Assembly: GCA_017429945.1 (NCBI GenBank)
Contig: JAFRNY010000072.1
Location: 1 to 33,309 of the forward strand
Source: Bacteroidaceae bacterium
GTDB lineage: Bacteria > Bacteroidota > Bacteroidia > Bacteroidales > Bacteroidaceae
DNA length: 33,309 bases
Direction of reading: 5' to 3'
Below, piece by piece: positions 25,001 to 33,185 of this stretch. The translations under genes and the position numbers were made by a program. The notes beneath the pieces are model-generated. The model ran no database searches, was not told the DNA's origin, and was given only the letters and a program-made list of their open reading frames with translations. Positions within the stretch are counted from its first letter, which is position 1. The number at the start of each line of letters is the position of its first letter.

Positions 25001-26851
25001 ATGAAGAAGGCCCTGCTTACACGTATCCTAACACCTGCCACCATCACAATTCTAATGCTGAGTTGTTCCGGCGGCAGCCGCTACCGTGCGCTGCTCGACC
25101 GTGCCGACTCCCTCATGGCCGAGCACCCCGACTCGGCCTACGCCCTGCTTGCATCTATAGATTCTGCCGACATGAGCCGGCAGCGTAAGGCCGTCCGCAT
25201 GCGCTATGAGCTGCAGCGTGCTGAAGCGCAGAACAAACTCTACACCCCCTTCACTACCGACTCCGTCCTGCGTGAAGTCGTCCGTTACTACGACTCACCA
25301 TGGCACAAGTACATTATTCATTTTTCATTTTTCACTTTTCATTCGGCCTCGAATGAGGCCCTTAAGTCCCGCTATCTCCTCGGCTGCGCCTACCGCGACC
25401 TCCACGAAGCCCCCATAGCCCTGCTCACATGGGAAGAGGCCATCGCCGCTGCCGACACCACCACCGCCGACTGCGACTACGCCACATTGTCCCGAGTCTA
25501 CGGGCAGATGGCAGAGATTTATAAATGGCAACACCTGCCTGAGATGCAATTAAAGGCTCAAAAGAATTTCAGCGTGTTTGCTTTATTGGCCGGGGACACT
25601 TTAAATCACTTACGCGGTCAACTACTCTGCAACTCTGCCTATTACGCCCTTGGTGATACTGCAGCCATCTTTGCGAACTCCGAAGCTGTACGGAAACAAT
25701 ATCTTGAACTCGGTTTGACGAGGGAGGCTGCCAGGGTCTATCCAACGCCCATTCACGTGGCTGTGGATAATGGTCAGTATGAGCGAGCCCTCAAGATGAT
25801 GGATGAGTATGAGCAACACTCAGGTTTTTTCGACAGTGATGGTTTCATCACAGATTCAACACGCGCGCAATATCATTCTTATAAAGGTCGGTACTTTCTG
25901 GGTGTTCACGAAATCGACTCTGCTGAAATGCAGTTTCGCAAAATCATGCATATACAGCGTGTTGCCATAGATGCGTACAGAGGTCTTATTGAAGTATACA
26001 GACAGAGGAAAGAAGTGGACTCTATTCAAAAGTATTCACGCTTATTTGAATGTCAGGCCATTCGAGCCTTGAACAATTCTAACAGTTATGGAATAATTCA
26101 GGCTCAAGGCATGTATGACTATAGCAGACAAGAGCGTATAGCTATGGAAAAAGAACGAAGTAACAGATGGTGGAAGTCTGTTTTTTATCTAATGTCGCTC
26201 GCAATGCTTATAGTGGCATTTATTGCGTTCTACCACATAAAAAGGGCGAGGTTATTAAAGATTTTACAAGAACAGGAATACGAGAATCTTGAAAGCAAGT
26301 ACACCGCTGCATTAGAACAATTGGGAGAAGCGCAAAGCGATGTGTCTTTCTTGCGGCAAGAACTTGAAGATAATGAGGCTGCCCGACAACTATTACGGCG
26401 AAAAGAGGTCCAGATTATTGAACTAAAGAACTTAGTCGGAGACCTGAGCAAGCGGCTGAAATACTCACCAAGACATGACATGCTCAGCAATATCAAGGAA
26501 TCAGATATAATAGAACGACTTCACACAATATGTAAACTTCACGTCGACGAGAGCAGTGATGGCATGAAGCAGATTCACCCACGTAAGGCATCAAACATTG
26601 AATGGGATAAACTAAACCAGCACACGCGCATTACCCACCCAGGATTCTTCCTTGCCATCACGGAGAGGAAGCTGTCAGAATTGGAATTCAAGGTTTGTCT
26701 GCTCGTTCGTTATGGCTTCAAGAATCCAGAGATATCAACCCTTACTGGGGCGAATAAACGCAGTATTAGTAACGTGCGAAAGAAGTTGGCAGTGCTTTTG
26801 TTCGGTTCTGATAGCGCTCGTGATCTTGATAGCCATCTACTTAGTTTATAG
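25001..26851 (+). CDS. Membrane-anchored TPR-HTH transcriptional regulator
   Basis: A 616-residue regulator of a Bacteroidetes-specific type. It has a lipoprotein-like signal (MLSCSGG, Cys near 22), helical TPR-type repeats (about 25-385), one TM helix (about 391-413, VFYLMSLAMLIVAFIAFYHI), a coiled coil (about 415-500), and a LuxR-like helix-turn-helix tail (about 555-600: LSELEFKVCLLVRYGFKNPEISTLTGANKRSISNVRKKL). It may bind DNA while held at the membrane. A 12-residue insertion near residues 104-116 (YIIHFSFFTFHS) is encoded by a tandem TCATTTTT-type repeat between the YYDS block and the SASNEALKSRYLLG block. Base composition changes from GC-rich to AT-rich near 25530, inside the gene. It precedes the DUF3244/RiPP genes and may control them, which is inference. 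Confidence 0.82.
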   Translation: MKKALLTRILTPATITILMLSCSGGSRYRALLDRADSLMAEHPDSAYALLASIDSADMSRQRKAVRMRYELQRAEAQNKLYTPFTTDSVLREVVRYYDSPWHKYIIHFSFFTFHSASNEALKSRYLLGCAYRDLHEAPIALLTWEEAIAAADTTTADCDYATLSRVYGQMAEIYKWQHLPEMQLKAQKNFSVFALLAGDTLNHLRGQLLCNSAYYALGDTAAIFANSEAVRKQYLELGLTREAARVYPTPIHVAVDNGQYERALKMMDEYEQHSGFFDSDGFITDSTRAQYHSYKGRYFLGVHEIDSAEMQFRKIMHIQRVAIDAYRGLIEVYRQRKEVDSIQKYSRLFECQAIRALNNSNSYGIIQAQGMYDYSRQERIAMEKERSNRWWKSVFYLMSLAMLIVAFIAFYHIKRARLLKILQEQEYENLESKYTAALEQLGEAQSDVSFLRQELEDNEAARQLLRRKEVQIIELKNLVGDLSKRLKYSPRHDMLSNIKESDIIERLHTICKLHVDESSDGMKQIHPRKASNIEWDKLNQHTRITHPGFFLAITERKLSELEFKVCLLVRYGFKNPEISTLTGANKRSISNVRKKLAVLLFGSDSARDLDSHLLSL

Positions 26852-27054: not shown

Positions 27055-27399
27055 ATGTATAAAAAGTTATCGATTTTCACTATGGCTTTATTCGCAGCCA
27101 TGTGCGTCTCTTCACAAGACATTATTGTTCAGCCAACTATCAATCCAGATGATGGCAATGGTGAAAACCCCCGCGCCCCCATCCCTATGCCCGTCCTCTA
27201 TCTCGATGGCCATACGCTGACGGCCGGCTCCTACACCCTCGGCTCCACCATCCAACTCTTGGACGAGGATGACAATGTAGTCTTCTCTACCTTTATATAT
27301 ATAGAAGGCGACATCGAGCTGCCCACGACCCTCTCCGGCACCTACACTATACGTGTCATCCGCGGCAGCCAGACTTTTGAGGGTACAATATGGCTATAA
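27055..27399 (+). CDS. Exported DUF3244-like small protein
   Basis: A 114-residue secreted protein: signal peptide about 1-20 (MYKKLSIFTMALFAAMCVSSQ), a short Pro/Asn-rich linker, then one small beta-sandwich (about 45-114) with YLDGHTLTAGSYTLGSTIQLLDE and LSGTYTIRVIRGSQTFEGTIWL, like the Bacteroidetes DUF3244 family. The start ATG follows a strong promoter by 26 bases. Composition is a mosaic: the signal peptide is AT-rich, about 27165-27375 is GC-rich, and the DNA turns AT-rich again after. It may be an independent secreted protein that shares the promoter of the downstream RiPP precursor. Function unknown. Confidence 0.7.
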   Translation: MYKKLSIFTMALFAAMCVSSQDIIVQPTINPDDGNGENPRAPIPMPVLYLDGHTLTAGSYTLGSTIQLLDEDDNVVFSTFIYIEGDIELPTTLSGTYTIRVIRGSQTFEGTIWL

Positions 27400-27445: not shown

Positions 27446-27766
27446 ATGTCCAATAAAATTATGAATCCTAAAGAGACTTTTGACTTCAATGAGTTATCAG
27501 ATTCAATTTGTAACTTTGAATCATGTTTTAACTATAAGGCTAACAACGATGACAAATATCCAATGAGATGCTGTGGCTGCGGTTGTTTAGGCACCTCTGA
27601 AACAGCAGACAATTCATCAGCAAATGTCGCAGAATTCAGGTCCACGCCCGGGAACTGGAAAGGTGACGTAACAAATGGCAATGGGATATGCATACTCATG
27701 ACATATAATGAGTCTATTGGCAAATATGAAGAGACAGATCATGGGTCTAACTGTGGGCCAGCGTAA
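27446..27766 (+). CDS. Candidate RiPP precursor peptide, Cys-rich
   Basis: A 106-residue peptide with eight Cys (22, 27, 42, 43, 45, 47, 82, 103). An acidic, aromatic leader-like N-terminus (ETFDFNELSDS, about 10-20) is followed by a core that starts MRCCGCGCLGTSETADNSSAN (about 40-60). The Cys-x-Cys block followed by a Ser/Thr/Asp-Asn-x-x-Ala-Asn stretch resembles, from memory, the core of GG-Bacteroidales natural-product precursors (TIGR04149-like). The usual Gly-Gly at the end of the leader is missing, and the tail (about 61-106) is longer than usual and ends HGSNCGPA. It lies 46 bases after DUF3244 and 253 before the radical-SAM maturase. The start could also be Met6 (27461). The precursor role is inferred from core pattern and neighbours. 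Confidence 0.62.
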   Translation: MSNKIMNPKETFDFNELSDSICNFESCFNYKANNDDKYPMRCCGCGCLGTSETADNSSANVAEFRSTPGNWKGDVTNGNGICILMTYNESIGKYEETDHGSNCGPA

Positions 27767-27832
27767 CGGCTCCAATAATTGATGTCTTACACAACGTCAT
27801 TGCCTTTGGATTACTTGAGCCAGTAGTTCTTA

Positions 27833-27955
27833 ATCCATATATATGGCCATGAGGTTGAATTTTAAAGCTGCATCACGCTGATAAGTGGCATACGAATGAT
27901 TAGCGGAATACAATAATGCTGGACCGAGACTTCCTCCTAATATTACCTCATCCGG
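27833..27955 (-). pseudogene. Possible gene remnant in the precursor-maturase gap
   Basis: Within the 253-base gap, the minus strand has a protein-like open stretch of 40 codons ending in TAA, preceded in frame by a stop. It reads PDEVILGGSLGPALL...YATYQRDAALKFNLMAIYMD. It lacks a plausible start codon and I do not recognise the family. It may be the tail of a gene erased when the AT-rich cluster arrived, or chance. Nothing else in 27767-28019 looks coding. Confidence 0.2.
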
Positions 27956-28019
27956 CTATATTTCAACTGTTAAGTGTACAATGGTGTTTATTCTGCGACC
28001 TGTGTATATTTGAATTATA

Positions 28020-29479
28020 ATGTCTATTCGCATAGTTACAAAGAACAATGTGTACCTGCTATCAAGAGATAGAGGCATACTAATATACATCCCTCCACTT
28101 ATGGATGAGATTATTCTTTTGCGTAACAAAGGAGTAGACATAAATAATGACAATGAGCTGTTAAAATACGCTAACAATCAGGACCTATATATATATTATC
28201 GTAACAAACTGAGATATTATGAAAAGATAGGTGTAAGTTATCCTGGAATTAGGGAAGAACAAGGAGTGTCTACATTAGAGGCAAGCCTTGTTGATTATCT
28301 TTTTTATCACAGTCCCAATATCGTATTTGAGGTCACGGAATCTTGTAATATGAGATGCAAGTATTGCGTTTATGGCGACCTTTATAAAAAAGAGGATAGG
28401 ACGAATCGACAACTCCGCTCTAGTCAAATGATAGCAGCAATCAAACAATTTATAAGGGGCAGGAGCGGACAGTTGTCTGTCGGATTTTATGGCGGTGAGC
28501 CTCTATTATCTTTTAATGCGATTAAAGAGGTCGTTAATCAATTTCAGCGAGAAGAGAGTTCCGGATTAATTAAATGGAGAATAACTACTAACGCGACCCT
28601 ACTTAATGACGAGGTAGCCAGATTCTTTATTCGCCATAACTTTTCTGTGTTGATTAGCCTTGACGGGGATGCGGAATGTAATGCTTATCGGGTCTACAAA
28701 GATGGCCGTCAGACATTTAATGATGTTATATACAACATCGGTAGGATGAGAACTTTAGATCCAGATTTTTTCCAGAATAATGTGAGGTTTAATTCCGTTT
28801 TACACAACAAGAATTCTGTAAAAAAATATATGACTTCTTCAGTAAGGAATTTGAAGTTATACCATCAATATCTGAATTAACTAAGATAAATAGAGAAGCA
28901 TCGAACAATGAATTTGCAGAAATCGCCATTTCTTCTGCAAGTAGTCATTCGACTGCTGGTGAGATTACCTTTGACACATCTCCCCAAAAACGTATGCTTT
29001 ACTCATTATTGCGTTTTTCTACGCCGAACTATTTTCGTTCATTATCCTATCTATTCAAAAACAATCCCGTGTTTCGCATGAATAGTGGGGATATAATTCC
29101 CTCTGGCACTTGCTTACCTTTTCAGAAGAAAATCTTCATCAGTTCACAGGGTGACATAAAACCATGCGAAAAAATTCCCATTAGGTTCTCTCTGGGGTTT
29201 GCAGATGATAATGGTATGCATATTGACTCAAATCACATTGCGGCATTTTATAATTCAATTTATAAGCGTATTTGGAATAATTGCCAGGATTGTAAAATGC
29301 GATCAAACTGCAACGTATGTACATTTTATCTTGATGGCGTTCTTGATGCAAACAAACGACTTAATTGCCAATACTACAAGGATGAATCGGACTATTCAAA
29401 AATCATATCACAATTGATTGAAATGATTGAAAAAAACTATAGCTTATATTTAAATTGTATCAATACAATTATAGAATGA
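28020..29479 (+). pseudogene. Radical-SAM/SPASM peptide maturase, frameshifted at an A7 tract
   Basis: The radical-SAM enzyme expected to modify the nearby Cys-rich peptide. The N-terminal part (28020-28880) has the [4Fe-4S] motif CNMRCKYC, then GFYGGEPLL, ITTNATLL and LISLDGD, all classic for radical-SAM maturases. The C-terminal part continues in another frame to 29479 with a SPASM-like Cys set: TCLPF, KPCEKIP, CQDCKMRSNCNVC, NCQYY. The frames meet at seven A residues (28820-28826). Eight would give the continuous SVKKIYDFFSKEFEVIPS and a 486-residue enzyme, the usual size; seven give a stop after 286 residues. The downstream frame has no stops from 28820 to 29477. This could be a real mutation, slipped-strand phase variation or a read error. 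The stop overlaps the next start as ATGA. By context it is of the GG-Bacteroidales maturase type (TIGR04148-like, from memory). Confidence 0.85.
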
Positions 29480-30630
29480 ATAAACATCATATTCTATACG
29501 TTGATGGACATGTGTACATATCGCATAAGCCTAATAATATCCTCCTATACAATTTCATAGAAAGTAGGGGGCAAACCTTTTACGTAAAAGATGATTTAAC
29601 CAATCAGATATTCTCTATTCTTTCAAGACCGGAGAACGCAAACCGAACGGTTCTCCCGGAAGACTATAAAAAATCAGAAGACTTATGTAATATTATCCAA
29701 TTTCTCCATAACAATTTCTGGGGGGATGTGATAATACTTCCAGAGAATCAAGAACCACCAGCTTGTTTTATGCCAATTTGCAATTTAGAGGGTGTCAAAT
29801 CTCACACTCTAAACGATTTGCAAAGTATAACAATTGCATTAAATGGCACTTCTTCTTTGTTCGAGATTCCAATTCAAAATCAATTACCATTAATGTATTG
29901 TTCTCCAAGAAATGATTTTATAAATTATGATACTTTAATTAGCTTCTTAGGTGACGTTCCAAATGATGTTGGTATAAGGATAATAGGTGGTGATTTAAGT
30001 TCCTACCCATTCTTAAAAGAAGTTTTGACCTATCTGCAATCAAGGTTTCAAAATATTGCCATTTTCTCGTATTTCAAATTCTATGACGAATATCTTTATA
30101 GTTTAAATGTAAATAAAAATATAATAATCAGAGGGGATGAGTTTTATAACACAGGCAAATATGTGAAGAGTGATAAAATAAATCTACATTTCATTGTTGA
30201 TAGTAGGGCTGCCTATCGTAACATACTGAATCATTTTCCAGAAGCGACCTTAGGATTAAATAAATACGTGTGGCCTATAAATCTAACAACTAATTCACAA
30301 AAAATCAGGCTGCTGATTTCATTTGATAAAAAGACTCTTACAAAATCAAGAATTCAACTTCATAATTATTTTTTAAACAAGATTTTGAACCGTCACTTTT
30401 ATGGTCAATTATACATCGCTTCCAGTGGGAATGTCCACACTAATTACAACTTTAAACCTATAGGTACAATTCATGACTCAATAATGGATTGTTTGAACAG
30501 AATCGACGAGAATGATTCCTGGTTCCATATCAGGAACTTCAAACCTTGTTCTGAATGTGTTTTTCAATGGTTGTGTCCCCCGCCTACTAATTATGAGATT
30601 TCAATGGGAATAAAATCTTTATGTCAATAA
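29476..30630 (+). CDS. Pseudo-radical-SAM partner protein (GG-Bacteroidales type)
   Basis: A 384-residue protein that aligns in plan with a radical-SAM/SPASM enzyme but lacks the N-terminal CxxxCxxC triad; the place where it should lie (about 118-150, SITIALNGTSSLF...) has no such cysteines. It keeps a C-terminal Cys cluster, FKPCSECVFQWLCPPPTNYE plus a near-terminal Cys. From memory, this CxxC-x5-C-P-x-P-x-N-Y-E ending is characteristic of the pseudo-rSAM family TIGR04150 that accompanies GG-Bacteroidales maturases. It may hold the precursor or act as scaffold for the true maturase; no reaction is known. I chose ATG 29476, which overlaps the maturase stop as ATGA, over an upstream TTG (29455). 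Confidence 0.8.
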   Translation: MNKHHILYVDGHVYISHKPNNILLYNFIESRGQTFYVKDDLTNQIFSILSRPENANRTVLPEDYKKSEDLCNIIQFLHNNFWGDVIILPENQEPPACFMPICNLEGVKSHTLNDLQSITIALNGTSSLFEIPIQNQLPLMYCSPRNDFINYDTLISFLGDVPNDVGIRIIGGDLSSYPFLKEVLTYLQSRFQNIAIFSYFKFYDEYLYSLNVNKNIIIRGDEFYNTGKYVKSDKINLHFIVDSRAAYRNILNHFPEATLGLNKYVWPINLTTNSQKIRLLISFDKKTLTKSRIQLHNYFLNKILNRHFYGQLYIASSGNVHTNYNFKPIGTIHDSIMDCLNRIDENDSWFHIRNFKPCSECVFQWLCPPPTNYEISMGIKSLCQ

Positions 30631-30648
30631 CTTAAAACAATTTGCATT

Positions 30649-31713
30649 ATGAAAACAAAATGTCTAATTTTATTAGTGATGCTCGTAAATATTACGAAAG
30701 CTCAAGATACTCTAAAGCTATCGCCAGCTTGGCTTGAGAGTGAGAAAATAAATGTATCTGAATATGTTAGTCGTATAGACTATATTCCAATTGAGTACAA
30801 TATGCCTCTAAGTCTTAATGATAGGCTGTACACAGGGAATGATTTTGTGATGTTTGGGAAGAATATTTATTGGGGTAATAATTATTCACAAAGCATCTCA
30901 TTCGCAGACATTAATGCTAAAGACAATTGTTCTTCAGTCATTAATGGTGAATTATACTATCTATCACTAAGAGACTCTATAGTATCAATATATAAAAATG
31001 GCCGGAATTTGGCAGGCAAAATAAACCTACCTCAAGGTATAGATAGGATTCATATTACTGATAGAGGATTATTAATAGGTTACAGATCCCGCAACATTGC
31101 AGTTGATGATAAAGGGTTAAGAGAGTTATATGTTTATGACATCTTCAATAAGGAGCTCCTATTAAGCCATCATTCACTATCCAAATCATCCTGCGAATTG
31201 AACAAACAATGGTTCCCCTTTTTGTATAATCTTATTTGGGATTATAAAGGACATATTTACTATTACGAAAATATAACCCAGAAGGTGTACGAGATAGTTC
31301 AGATAAAAGATAGTGGCGTGCGGTTAGTAGAGAGATTTATTATTGACATGTCACCTTATGCAATGTCTTTTGATGATGCTCTTGCGATGGGAGATAAAGA
31401 TTATACGTTCGGACGTTCTATGCATATAATGCGAGTGTTAGAGGTTGCAAATGGCATTATATTCACGATTAGTTACGACAAAAAGATAAAGACTATCGTT
31501 TTCAATAAATCGAATTTAAGTATTGCTGGAGTTTCTACTCTCACTGCTGATTTAGATGAGATAGCAAGTGGTGAATTGTATTTGCAATGGAATCGGCTGA
31601 GTCAAAGAGGGAAAATCGCAGCAAAGAAATACTTTAGATCACATAATATGTCTCCATCCTATAAACCTACGACATATATAATACCCGTGTATGATGGATT
31701 TGAAGAATATTGA
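30649..31713 (+). CDS. Secreted 6-bladed beta-propeller protein
   Basis: A 354-residue protein with a signal peptide (about 1-18, ending ITKAQ; no lipobox Cys, unlike most relatives). The body has repeated blade-like strands such as DRIHITDRGLLIGY, LRELYVYDIFNKELL and LIWDYKGHIYYYENITQKVYEI, similar to the Bacteroidetes 6-bladed beta-propeller family (formerly DUF5128, NHL-like). It starts 18 bases after the pseudo-rSAM gene and its end overlaps the LanC-like gene by 23 bases. Such propellers recur in GG-Bacteroidales peptide clusters and could bind the product outside the cell; that role is inferred. Confidence 0.72.
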   Translation: MKTKCLILLVMLVNITKAQDTLKLSPAWLESEKINVSEYVSRIDYIPIEYNMPLSLNDRLYTGNDFVMFGKNIYWGNNYSQSISFADINAKDNCSSVINGELYYLSLRDSIVSIYKNGRNLAGKINLPQGIDRIHITDRGLLIGYRSRNIAVDDKGLRELYVYDIFNKELLLSHHSLSKSSCELNKQWFPFLYNLIWDYKGHIYYYENITQKVYEIVQIKDSGVRLVERFIIDMSPYAMSFDDALAMGDKDYTFGRSMHIMRVLEVANGIIFTISYDKKIKTIVFNKSNLSIAGVSTLTADLDEIASGELYLQWNRLSQRGKIAAKKYFRSHNMSPSYKPTTYIIPVYDGFEEY

Positions 31714-32716
31714 ACAATCAATAATAGACAAAGAACTTCAAAAGATCTTTAAACGGAATGACCCATTTATATTGAATGGGCATATGGGTGCTGTTATTTA
31801 CCTTATGATGAAGCCTGACAAGAACTCATTAGTTAGGGCAAAAGCTTACTTAAATAAAATTACAAAAAACATCAACAATGATTCTCGATTGGAAATAGGG
31901 CATGGACTCTGTGGTATTTCACTTGGCTGTATGTTCATGATAAAAAATGGATTTGCGGCAAAAGAAGTTAGCCATTTGCCAATCTCTATAGAGAGTTATA
32001 TTTATAGGAGTGTCTGCTATAAGATGAGTATGGGGTATGATAACAATGTCGTTGATACGCTTCTTGATGTTGCTCTCTATACGGTTTACAGGATTAATAA
32101 ATCTGTGATGAGCACATATCAGAGGGGCATACAGATCCGTCTATTAATGGATATGATTGACTACATACATTTAGGGGAAGGCTTTGCGCACCGGTTGGAG
32201 CCCATGCCAGCCTCTTTAAACTTTTATCTTTTCAGGCTTCTGCTTGTTCTGTCTGGTGCAGTATCCTTGCCAGAATGTAAACCTCGCATAATTCACATCA
32301 TCCAAGAACTGGAATTGCCTATAGTTTCTTCTTTTCCATACAGTGAATATAATAGGCTTTTATTATTATGCGGTTTACGACAATTACATAAGGAAATAAG
32401 CTTAAGCTCCAGATACAACGAGCATATTACTCTATTAGAACAGAATACATCTATTAAACGTATCATTCAAGAAGAGTTTCTGAGCAATAATCTTTCCTTT
32501 GTTAACGGACTTGTTGGATTATATTTAATATGTTCATTATTTAATGATTTTACATCTTGTGATGAAAGCTTATTTTCGAAAAAGATACTATCTTCAGACA
32601 TATATAGTGAACAGAATTATTCTGTGATCTCGACAAAACAATTTGGTGGACTAAATGGTATTTTAGGGCTTGATTTAATGATTTCAACACTCATTCAACG
32701 CAATCAATATGCTTAA
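31691..32716 (+). CDS. LanC-like alpha/alpha-toroid protein without zinc ligands
   Basis: A 341-residue cytoplasmic protein with the repeated Gly-rich turns of the lanthionine cyclase toroid: EIGHGLCGISLGCMFM (about 69-84), FVNGLVGLYLICSLF (about 269-284) and FGGLNGILGLDLM (about 318-330). True LanC enzymes hold zinc through a Cys and an adjacent Cys-His pair; I see no CHG motif, so cyclase activity of the standard type is doubtful. It could bind the modified peptide, or use a different chemistry. Its start overlaps the propeller gene by 23 bases and its end overlaps the glycosyltransferase start by 8 bases, showing tight coupling. An alternative start is the next codon ATG 31694. Confidence 0.62.
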   Translation: MMDLKNIEQSIIDKELQKIFKRNDPFILNGHMGAVIYLMMKPDKNSLVRAKAYLNKITKNINNDSRLEIGHGLCGISLGCMFMIKNGFAAKEVSHLPISIESYIYRSVCYKMSMGYDNNVVDTLLDVALYTVYRINKSVMSTYQRGIQIRLLMDMIDYIHLGEGFAHRLEPMPASLNFYLFRLLLVLSGAVSLPECKPRIIHIIQELELPIVSSFPYSEYNRLLLLCGLRQLHKEISLSSRYNEHITLLEQNTSIKRIIQEEFLSNNLSFVNGLVGLYLICSLFNDFTSCDESLFSKKILSSDIYSEQNYSVISTKQFGGLNGILGLDLMISTLIQRNQYA

Positions 32717-33185
32717 TCTTTCCGATGTAACATTCATGATACCACTTCGCCTTGATTCAATTATTAGGGTTGAAAATGTTGTGGCCGGTATTCAAGTTCT
32801 TTTGAATCACTTTAAAACAAATATTATTGTTTTGGAGGCAGCCTCCCACTGCAATCATATTCTGGAAAAACTCCTTCCTGAAGAAGTCCAATATGAATTT
32901 TGTATAGATAATGATCCAATATTTCATCGGACTAAATACATAAACCAAATTGCGAAGTGTTGCCAAACACCAATCATAGCAATATGGGATGCAGATGTCA
33001 TTCTTCCGCCAAGACAAATTGCCAGTTCCATCAGAATGTTACGAAAGCAGAATGCAGATGTTGTTTTTCCTTACGATGGTCACTTTTATGATACGACCAA
33101 AATCATAAGAGAATTGTTTATTGAGAACAATTATAATATAGATTTTTTATTAATGAATATAGATAAAACACTACTGTCCCGTTAA
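32709..33185 (+). pseudogene. GT-A glycosyltransferase, truncated by an insertion sequence
   Basis: The 158 codons encode the N-terminal half of a GT-A (GT2/GT7-like) glycosyltransferase: an opening beta strand VTFMIPLRLDS, a helix, and a DxD-type metal/nucleotide motif WDADVILPP (about 93-101), then FPYDGHFYDT. Families of this kind usually run to 250-350 residues. The last codons (CTG TCC CGT TAA) fall in the terminal sequence of an insertion element, so the stop is borrowed. The start overlaps the LanC-like gene by 8 bases. In its intact form it may glycosylate the peptide product; that is inference. Confidence 0.78.

Follow-up and report, generated by a model that had tools for sequence, protein, structure and literature searches.

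Can a peptide without a double glycine (GG) be the precursor of a GG-Bacteroidales peptide cluster? This question is raised by contig JAFRNY010000072.1 of the Bacteroidaceae assembly GCA_017429945.1, a stretch of 33,309 nucleotides that was analyzed as a whole (the window). An initial annotation, made from the letters alone, had proposed a cluster here for a ribosomally synthesized and post-translationally modified peptide (RiPP): a 106-residue peptide with a CCGCGC block, followed by a broken radical S-adenosylmethionine (rSAM) maturase of the SPASM type, a pseudo-rSAM protein, a beta-propeller, a LanC-like protein, and a glycosyltransferase. Sequence comparison indicates that the 106-residue open reading frame (ORF) is the precursor of an rSAM RiPP cluster of the TIGR04148/TIGR04150 ("GG-Bacteroidales") kind. 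We read the locus as an exporter-less variant that arrived by lateral transfer; its leader probably changed while the core stayed conserved, and it was then broken recently at two points (probability roughly 0.55).

A family core behind a leader without GG

The core carries the assignment, as it contains the Cys block shared by the precursors at such loci. A profile built from the cores of 29 relatives scored the window core at 25.9 bits, whereas shuffled controls reached at best 12.0 bits (999 scored shuffles), or 18.7 bits with the Cys block held fixed (n = 1000). When the window core was aligned with 22 of these 29 cores, C2, C4, C6, G8, N15, and N19 were invariant and A18 nearly so; the seven omitted cores were two near-copies and short or divergent ones (e.g., L093, L098, and L115:8260 in our numbering of loci as L, genomes as G, and contigs as C). 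Together with the TIGR04148 and TIGR04150 matches of the enzymes, this supports the cluster type initially proposed. The peptide had no match in NCBIfam, Pfam, or PHROGs, and hence to no unrelated secreted family; at the homologous loci, the precursors have this core as well, and no different small ORF takes their place.

The peptide itself was found as described at 27446-27766; two cysteines precede the block (positions 22 and 27), and two more lie in the tail (82 and 103). Since relatives also have cysteines ahead of the C-x-C-x-C block (20 of 43) and in the tail (13 of 43), these residues are not unusual. Thus, of the features that had made the precursor seem atypical, the missing GG stands, but the cysteines of core, leader, and tail appear ordinary for the group, and the leader would be the sole odd part. 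Given that multiple precursors occur in some relatives (e.g., L131 and L106), another ORF, beyond the insertion element that ends the contig or elsewhere, might be the true precursor, with the 106-residue ORF as a relic or accessory peptide. We consider this very improbable: the core profile gave a single significant match in the window (1.7e-6, the next being 0.2) and a single one in the window's own genome, where TIGR04149 found none, though the same search matched no control either.

GG is absent from the entire precursor. A leader profile built from 67 relatives gave the window leader -1.2 bits, a score that 312 of 1000 shuffles equalled or exceeded. The enzymes matched their family models with scores below the cut-offs. 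The GG-leader model TIGR04149 did not match the window precursor at E ≤ 1; among relatives, the same model scored L121, L169, L106, and L045 over its cut-off and L141 and L100 under it, with no match for L114. In 43 other core-bearing ORF segments, GG lay within 25 residues of the core in 39, further upstream in two (L135 and L147), and was replaced by GA or AG in two (L114 and L141). These segments were drawn from loci fetched via pseudo-rSAM, rSAM, and core searches, and 29 of the peptides trained the core profile; they are not independent, since the set includes near-copies and one gene that appears twice (L183 and L184). Two candidate origins of the leader were rejected. By eye, FDFNEL resembles a relic of LKLN...GG, but the profile score is that of shuffled sequence; and all frames of the window were searched for a leader hidden in another frame, with none near the core.

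TIGR04149 spans the leader and the start of the core, and the GG-family models rest on the leader; therefore, such models miss members whose leader has changed. The window precursor was picked up by the core profile, which could detect further members of this sort.

Core matches with E < 0.001 were found in 4 of 139 same-genus genomes, the window's own included. The other three (G113, G004, and G091) hold eight core-bearing peptides, all with GG leaders. Five further same-genus genomes gave weak core matches only (0.002 to 0.07), and no precursor was recognised at the three of these loci that were inspected. With the precursor itself as query, phages and plasmids gave no match, and 200 relatives gave its own genome and one match within a 1413-residue protein of G110, which was judged to be chance. 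Among 393 genomes of the order, its own and five weak matches appeared (E of 9e-4 to 5e-3), three of them inside frames of 265 to 949 residues and two with internal stops. A separate arrangement was observed in G113, where six TIGR04149-type GG precursors alternate with GLPGLI-family proteins (TIGR01200) on contig C34 (L188/L189, also L190 and L191), with a large outer-membrane-like protein after them; this 32-kb contig showed no rSAM resembling that of the cluster.

Table 1. Features of the cluster and its surroundings in the window
Feature	Position	Strand	Basis or remark
Regulator-like neighbour	25001..26851	+	Host-like GC content of 47.5%; cluster membership unsure
Putative RiPP precursor, 106 residues	27446..27766	+	Core homology; alternative ATG at 27461
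Putative leader part, GG-less	27446..27568	+	Leader profile score; GC content 28.5%
Putative core, CCGCGC-L-G-TSETAD-N-SSA-N block	27569..27679	+	Core profile; alignment with relatives
rSAM maturase, N-terminal frame	28020..28880	+	TIGR04148 E=2.3e-51; CNMRCKYC kept
rSAM maturase, C-terminal frame, SPASM ligands	28796..29479	+	First ATG 28994; TIGR04148 positions 191-410
Seven-A run at which the rSAM frame shifts by -1	28820..28826	+	Frame comparison
TIGR04150-type pseudo-rSAM	29476..30630	+	E=3.8e-53; CX3CX2C absent, C-terminal Cys set kept
Putative secreted protein in propeller position, fold unproven	30649..31713	+	Signal-peptide-like N-terminus by eye
LanC-like protein without CH or C(H/Y)G motif	31691..32716	+	PF05147 E=3e-4; 19.9 bits, cut-off 23.2
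Glycosyltransferase (GT2), N-terminal half only	32709..33168	+	PF00535 E=6e-5
9-bp target-site duplication, left copy	33160..33168		Same 9 bp directly past the element's right end on C62
Insertion element, left end, reaching the contig end	33169..33309		140 bp match the end of contig C61 exactly

Two breaks and a missing exporter

The TIGR04148-like maturase is divided between two reading frames in this assembly, and its description as broken was correct. TIGR04148 was the best family for both pieces (E=3.2e-33 for the C-terminal piece, 28994-29479), and the halves jointly span the model without a gap (positions 13-198 and 191-410). Because the gene is split, each piece alone remains below the 300-bit cut-off. 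Metal ligands are retained in both halves, as CNMRCKYC in the N-terminal one and as CX12GX4C and CX2CX5CX2C in the C-terminal one. The next-best profiles were those of the CcpM, RumMC, and PapB families, with second-tier matches to CcpM/PapB (TIGR04068 and NF047865) far below their cut-offs. SPASM maturases of these neighbouring families form thioether or related cross-links; the precursors of the clostridial CcpM/PapB maturases differ from the one described here.

The -1 change falls exactly at the seven-A run. In the zero frame this stretch reads GTA AAA AAA, as known slippery sites do. Either an assembly error or programmed slippage (at A AAA AAA) could underlie the frame change; a full maturase would then be possible, with only the glycosyltransferase broken. 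We regard this as possible rather than probable, as a one-base mutation in the run would look identical. Furthermore, the maturase genes of four relatives (L120, L154, L087, and L155) are also frame-split, at differing sites and in differing directions, and any run of five or more is absent from L120 and L154. There is therefore no conserved slippage signal, and a conserved programmed frameshift was rejected. A maturase of another build was seen in L052:1068-6062 (G181, contig C18), where a single frame of 1664 residues comprises a TIGR04148 maturase, a CarboxypepD_reg-like part, and a prolyl oligopeptidase (Peptidase_S9); the fusion adjoins a GG precursor, and the maturase is thus joined to a possible leader protease.

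The glycosyltransferase was matched as annotated, but not with its end at 33185, since the insertion element begins before that point. Its homologues have 249 to 264 residues and extend to a GWG-x-(E/D)D motif, which was located on contig C62, where a profile search with the C-terminus found the other half of the gene (E=1.8e-22). C62 starts with the right end of the element; the 9-bp duplicate, the remaining part of the galactosyltransferase-like enzyme (PF02709, 1.2e-9), and a methyltransferase (PF08241, 9.7e-10) follow, and host-like GC content resumes within about 1.5 kb. With the maturase frame split and the glycosyltransferase interrupted, the system appears to be off in the present assembly. 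Both breaks look recent, because the two 9-bp copies are identical and the family profile is still matched gap-free by the maturase halves.

No C39 exporter was found in the window, as had been noted initially, or in the adjoining 13.6 kb of C62 (tblastn). A PF03412 search of the whole genome returned one piece, covering 43 of 133 positions in a 62-residue frame on contig C9. This remnant (L170:1489-1638) lies directly after a large outer-membrane-like protein, and we take it to be what is left of another GG-peptide exporter, since lost. A C39 gene is present in 35 of the 79 relative loci, and in 17 of the 27 that have at least 8 kb on both sides. Thus, a C39 exporter is not strictly defining for GG-Bacteroidales loci.

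Probable origin of the cluster and order of events

The window is the whole of contig C66 in an assembly of 92 contigs. The cluster genes from 28020 onward have a GC content of 33 to 37% against 53% for the whole window, and the cluster is therefore taken as probably laterally acquired and foreign-looking in its host genome. Within the precursor gene, the leader has 28.5% and the core with the tail 47%. TIGR04150 reached its cut-off in 5 of the 200 relatives and in none of the same-genus genomes; five same-genus genomes besides the window's own gave weak matches.

In the exporter-less variant that we favour, the leader would have changed first, with the core still under selection, and the two breaks would have come later. 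The observation behind this order is the contrast between a leader without residual family similarity and a core that keeps six positions. If the leader changed under continued core selection, recognition and trimming of the peptide must have worked from then on without the C39 cut at GG. Acting with its pseudo-rSAM partner, the maturase would join the Cys block with the Ser/Thr/Asn/Ala-rich stretch that follows, most likely by thioether bonds; the LanC-like protein may provide a scaffold for binding, and decoration of the product would fall to the glycosyltransferase and the methyltransferase. If the leader is functional, leader recognition and C39 export would be separable from the chemistry of the Cys block, and the role of the pseudo-rSAM and LanC-like partners could be approached without export. 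In a GG-independent member, the maturase would be adapted to the new acidic leader, a host protease would replace C39, and the product would act in the cell or leave otherwise. A protease with trypsin-like specificity could cut at R41, which immediately precedes the Cys block; nevertheless, we hold such a member to be unlikely.

Plain decay is the main rival. A normal GG-leader cluster would have landed and lost its exporter, with leader, maturase, and glycosyltransferase degenerating and the core similar only because it has had too little time to diverge. The frame change and the insertion element fit this account, and so do the 43-residue C39 remnant as the only one in the genome, the pseudo-rSAM and maturase scores under the family cut-offs, the long branch of the pseudo-rSAM, and the broken maturases of the four relatives. 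However, the leader is an open frame in which no LKLN...GG residue is detectable, yet the core keeps its six positions. No GG-leader trace was present in any frame of the window, and three genes of the cluster have unbroken reading frames, namely those for the pseudo-rSAM and the LanC-like protein and the one at 30649. On balance, decay appears rather unlikely, but it has to be taken seriously as a rival.

Several points weigh against the sequence of events that we prefer. Of the 27 well-covered loci, 10 are without a nearby C39 gene, and all 10 have at least one GG precursor; thus, exporters may act in trans, and exporter loss alone neither explains the missing GG nor erases GG. The branch of the pseudo-rSAM is long, at 2.28 where the median is 0.64; relaxed selection could produce such a branch, and so could coevolution. 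The protein stands in the tree beside another long branch (L050), and its placement was therefore left unused. Exchange or loss of the leader could also have preceded the breaks only shortly, and the searches of the 200 relatives and the 393 genomes of the order found no close relative of the precursor by which selection could be gauged. The genome completeness of 82.4% also counts against our account.

Partner proteins and related clusters

The pseudo-rSAM was recovered as annotated, with its family score below the cut-off: TIGR04150 was the sole family matched, over the full length, with 181 bits against a cut-off of 250, and the protein holds all 12 residues invariant across 17 aligned relatives. 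A single-sequence scan of the genome_contigs collection gave 36 pattern matches, none a relative, and the best match among PDB profiles (0.02) was not an rSAM. Among 88 TIGR04150 rows, 40 keep CX3CX2C within residues 91-230, and all 88 keep the C-terminal CX2C...CP. By their motifs, proteins labelled pseudo-rSAM seem often not to be so pseudo.

The beta-propeller found no support in the sequence. The protein at 30649-31713 had no match in Pfam or NCBIfam and none among plasmids; against a profile of 44 propellers it reached 1.7 bits, with an hhalign probability of 2.8%. It occupies the place where L124 has a propeller. The LanC-like protein was recovered, with its family score below the cut-off. 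A motif scan did not find the zinc motif C-gap-CH, an alignment of homologues had no invariant Cys or His, and no counterpart was found among plasmids; the best match among PDB profiles was to LanKC (4.5e-4). Homologues occur in L121, L124, L126, and L042, and LanC-like proteins of at least 100 bits in 4 of the 79 loci (L121, L124, L126, and L155). The overlapping gene ends were confirmed in three places: maturase and pseudo-rSAM via ATGA at 29476-29479, 30649-31713 with 31691-32716, and 31691-32716 with 32709-33185. Upstream, the regulator-like protein had no Pfam match but is homologous to cluster regulators of relatives (L124, E=4.6e-22; L088, 8e-14); the protein at 27055-27399 had no Pfam match.

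The closest comparison is L124 of Parabacteroides distasonis An863, with the order regulator, GG precursor, rSAM, pseudo-rSAM, propeller, LanC-like protein, glycosyltransferase, and C39 exporter, and two extra ORFs between regulator and precursor. The window shares with it the gene order, the propeller position included, the core motif, and the neighbouring regulator homologue. In contrast, the window has no GG/TIGR04149 leader, no C39 exporter was found, and the maturase and glycosyltransferase are broken. L088 (P. distasonis NZ_OY725758.1), which shares the regulator homologue, is annotated as a GG-Bacteroidales system.

According to Fernandez-Cantos et al. 2023 (PMC10352776), BGC3-5 combine rSAM, pseudo-rSAM, and a LanC-like protein without the C-gap-CH zinc motif, with which the LanC-like protein of the window agrees in lacking CH or C(H/Y)G. 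BGC3 has a glycosyltransferase, and BGC3 and BGC5 are without a C39 transporter. Their precursors retain GG-motif residues despite the missing transporter, whereas the window precursor has no GG. The same study counts 263 rSAM + LanC and 41 rSAM + LanC + GlyS areas in Bacteroidales. Judged by L124 and this study, the gene set itself is not new. Our search of the literature on TIGR04148, TIGR04149, TIGR04150, TIGR04157, pseudo-rSAM, and GG-samocin found no product structure, with subscription papers mostly outside its reach. The cluster is a known but unstudied kind of RiPP system, and the GG-less leader sets it apart from the relatives compared.

Part of the gene set was also seen in other company. 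In Parabacteroides L090 (NZ_OY725766.1), LanC-like and galactosyltransferase-related genes adjoin a small-peptide gene and a C39 exporter; this locus differs in having a vitamin K epoxide reductase (VKOR) family gene instead of an rSAM. In L042, the neighbours of a LanC-like and galactosyltransferase pair are another LanC-like gene and a GG peptide rich in Cys. Therefore, the LanC-like and galactosyltransferase pair moves between peptide systems.

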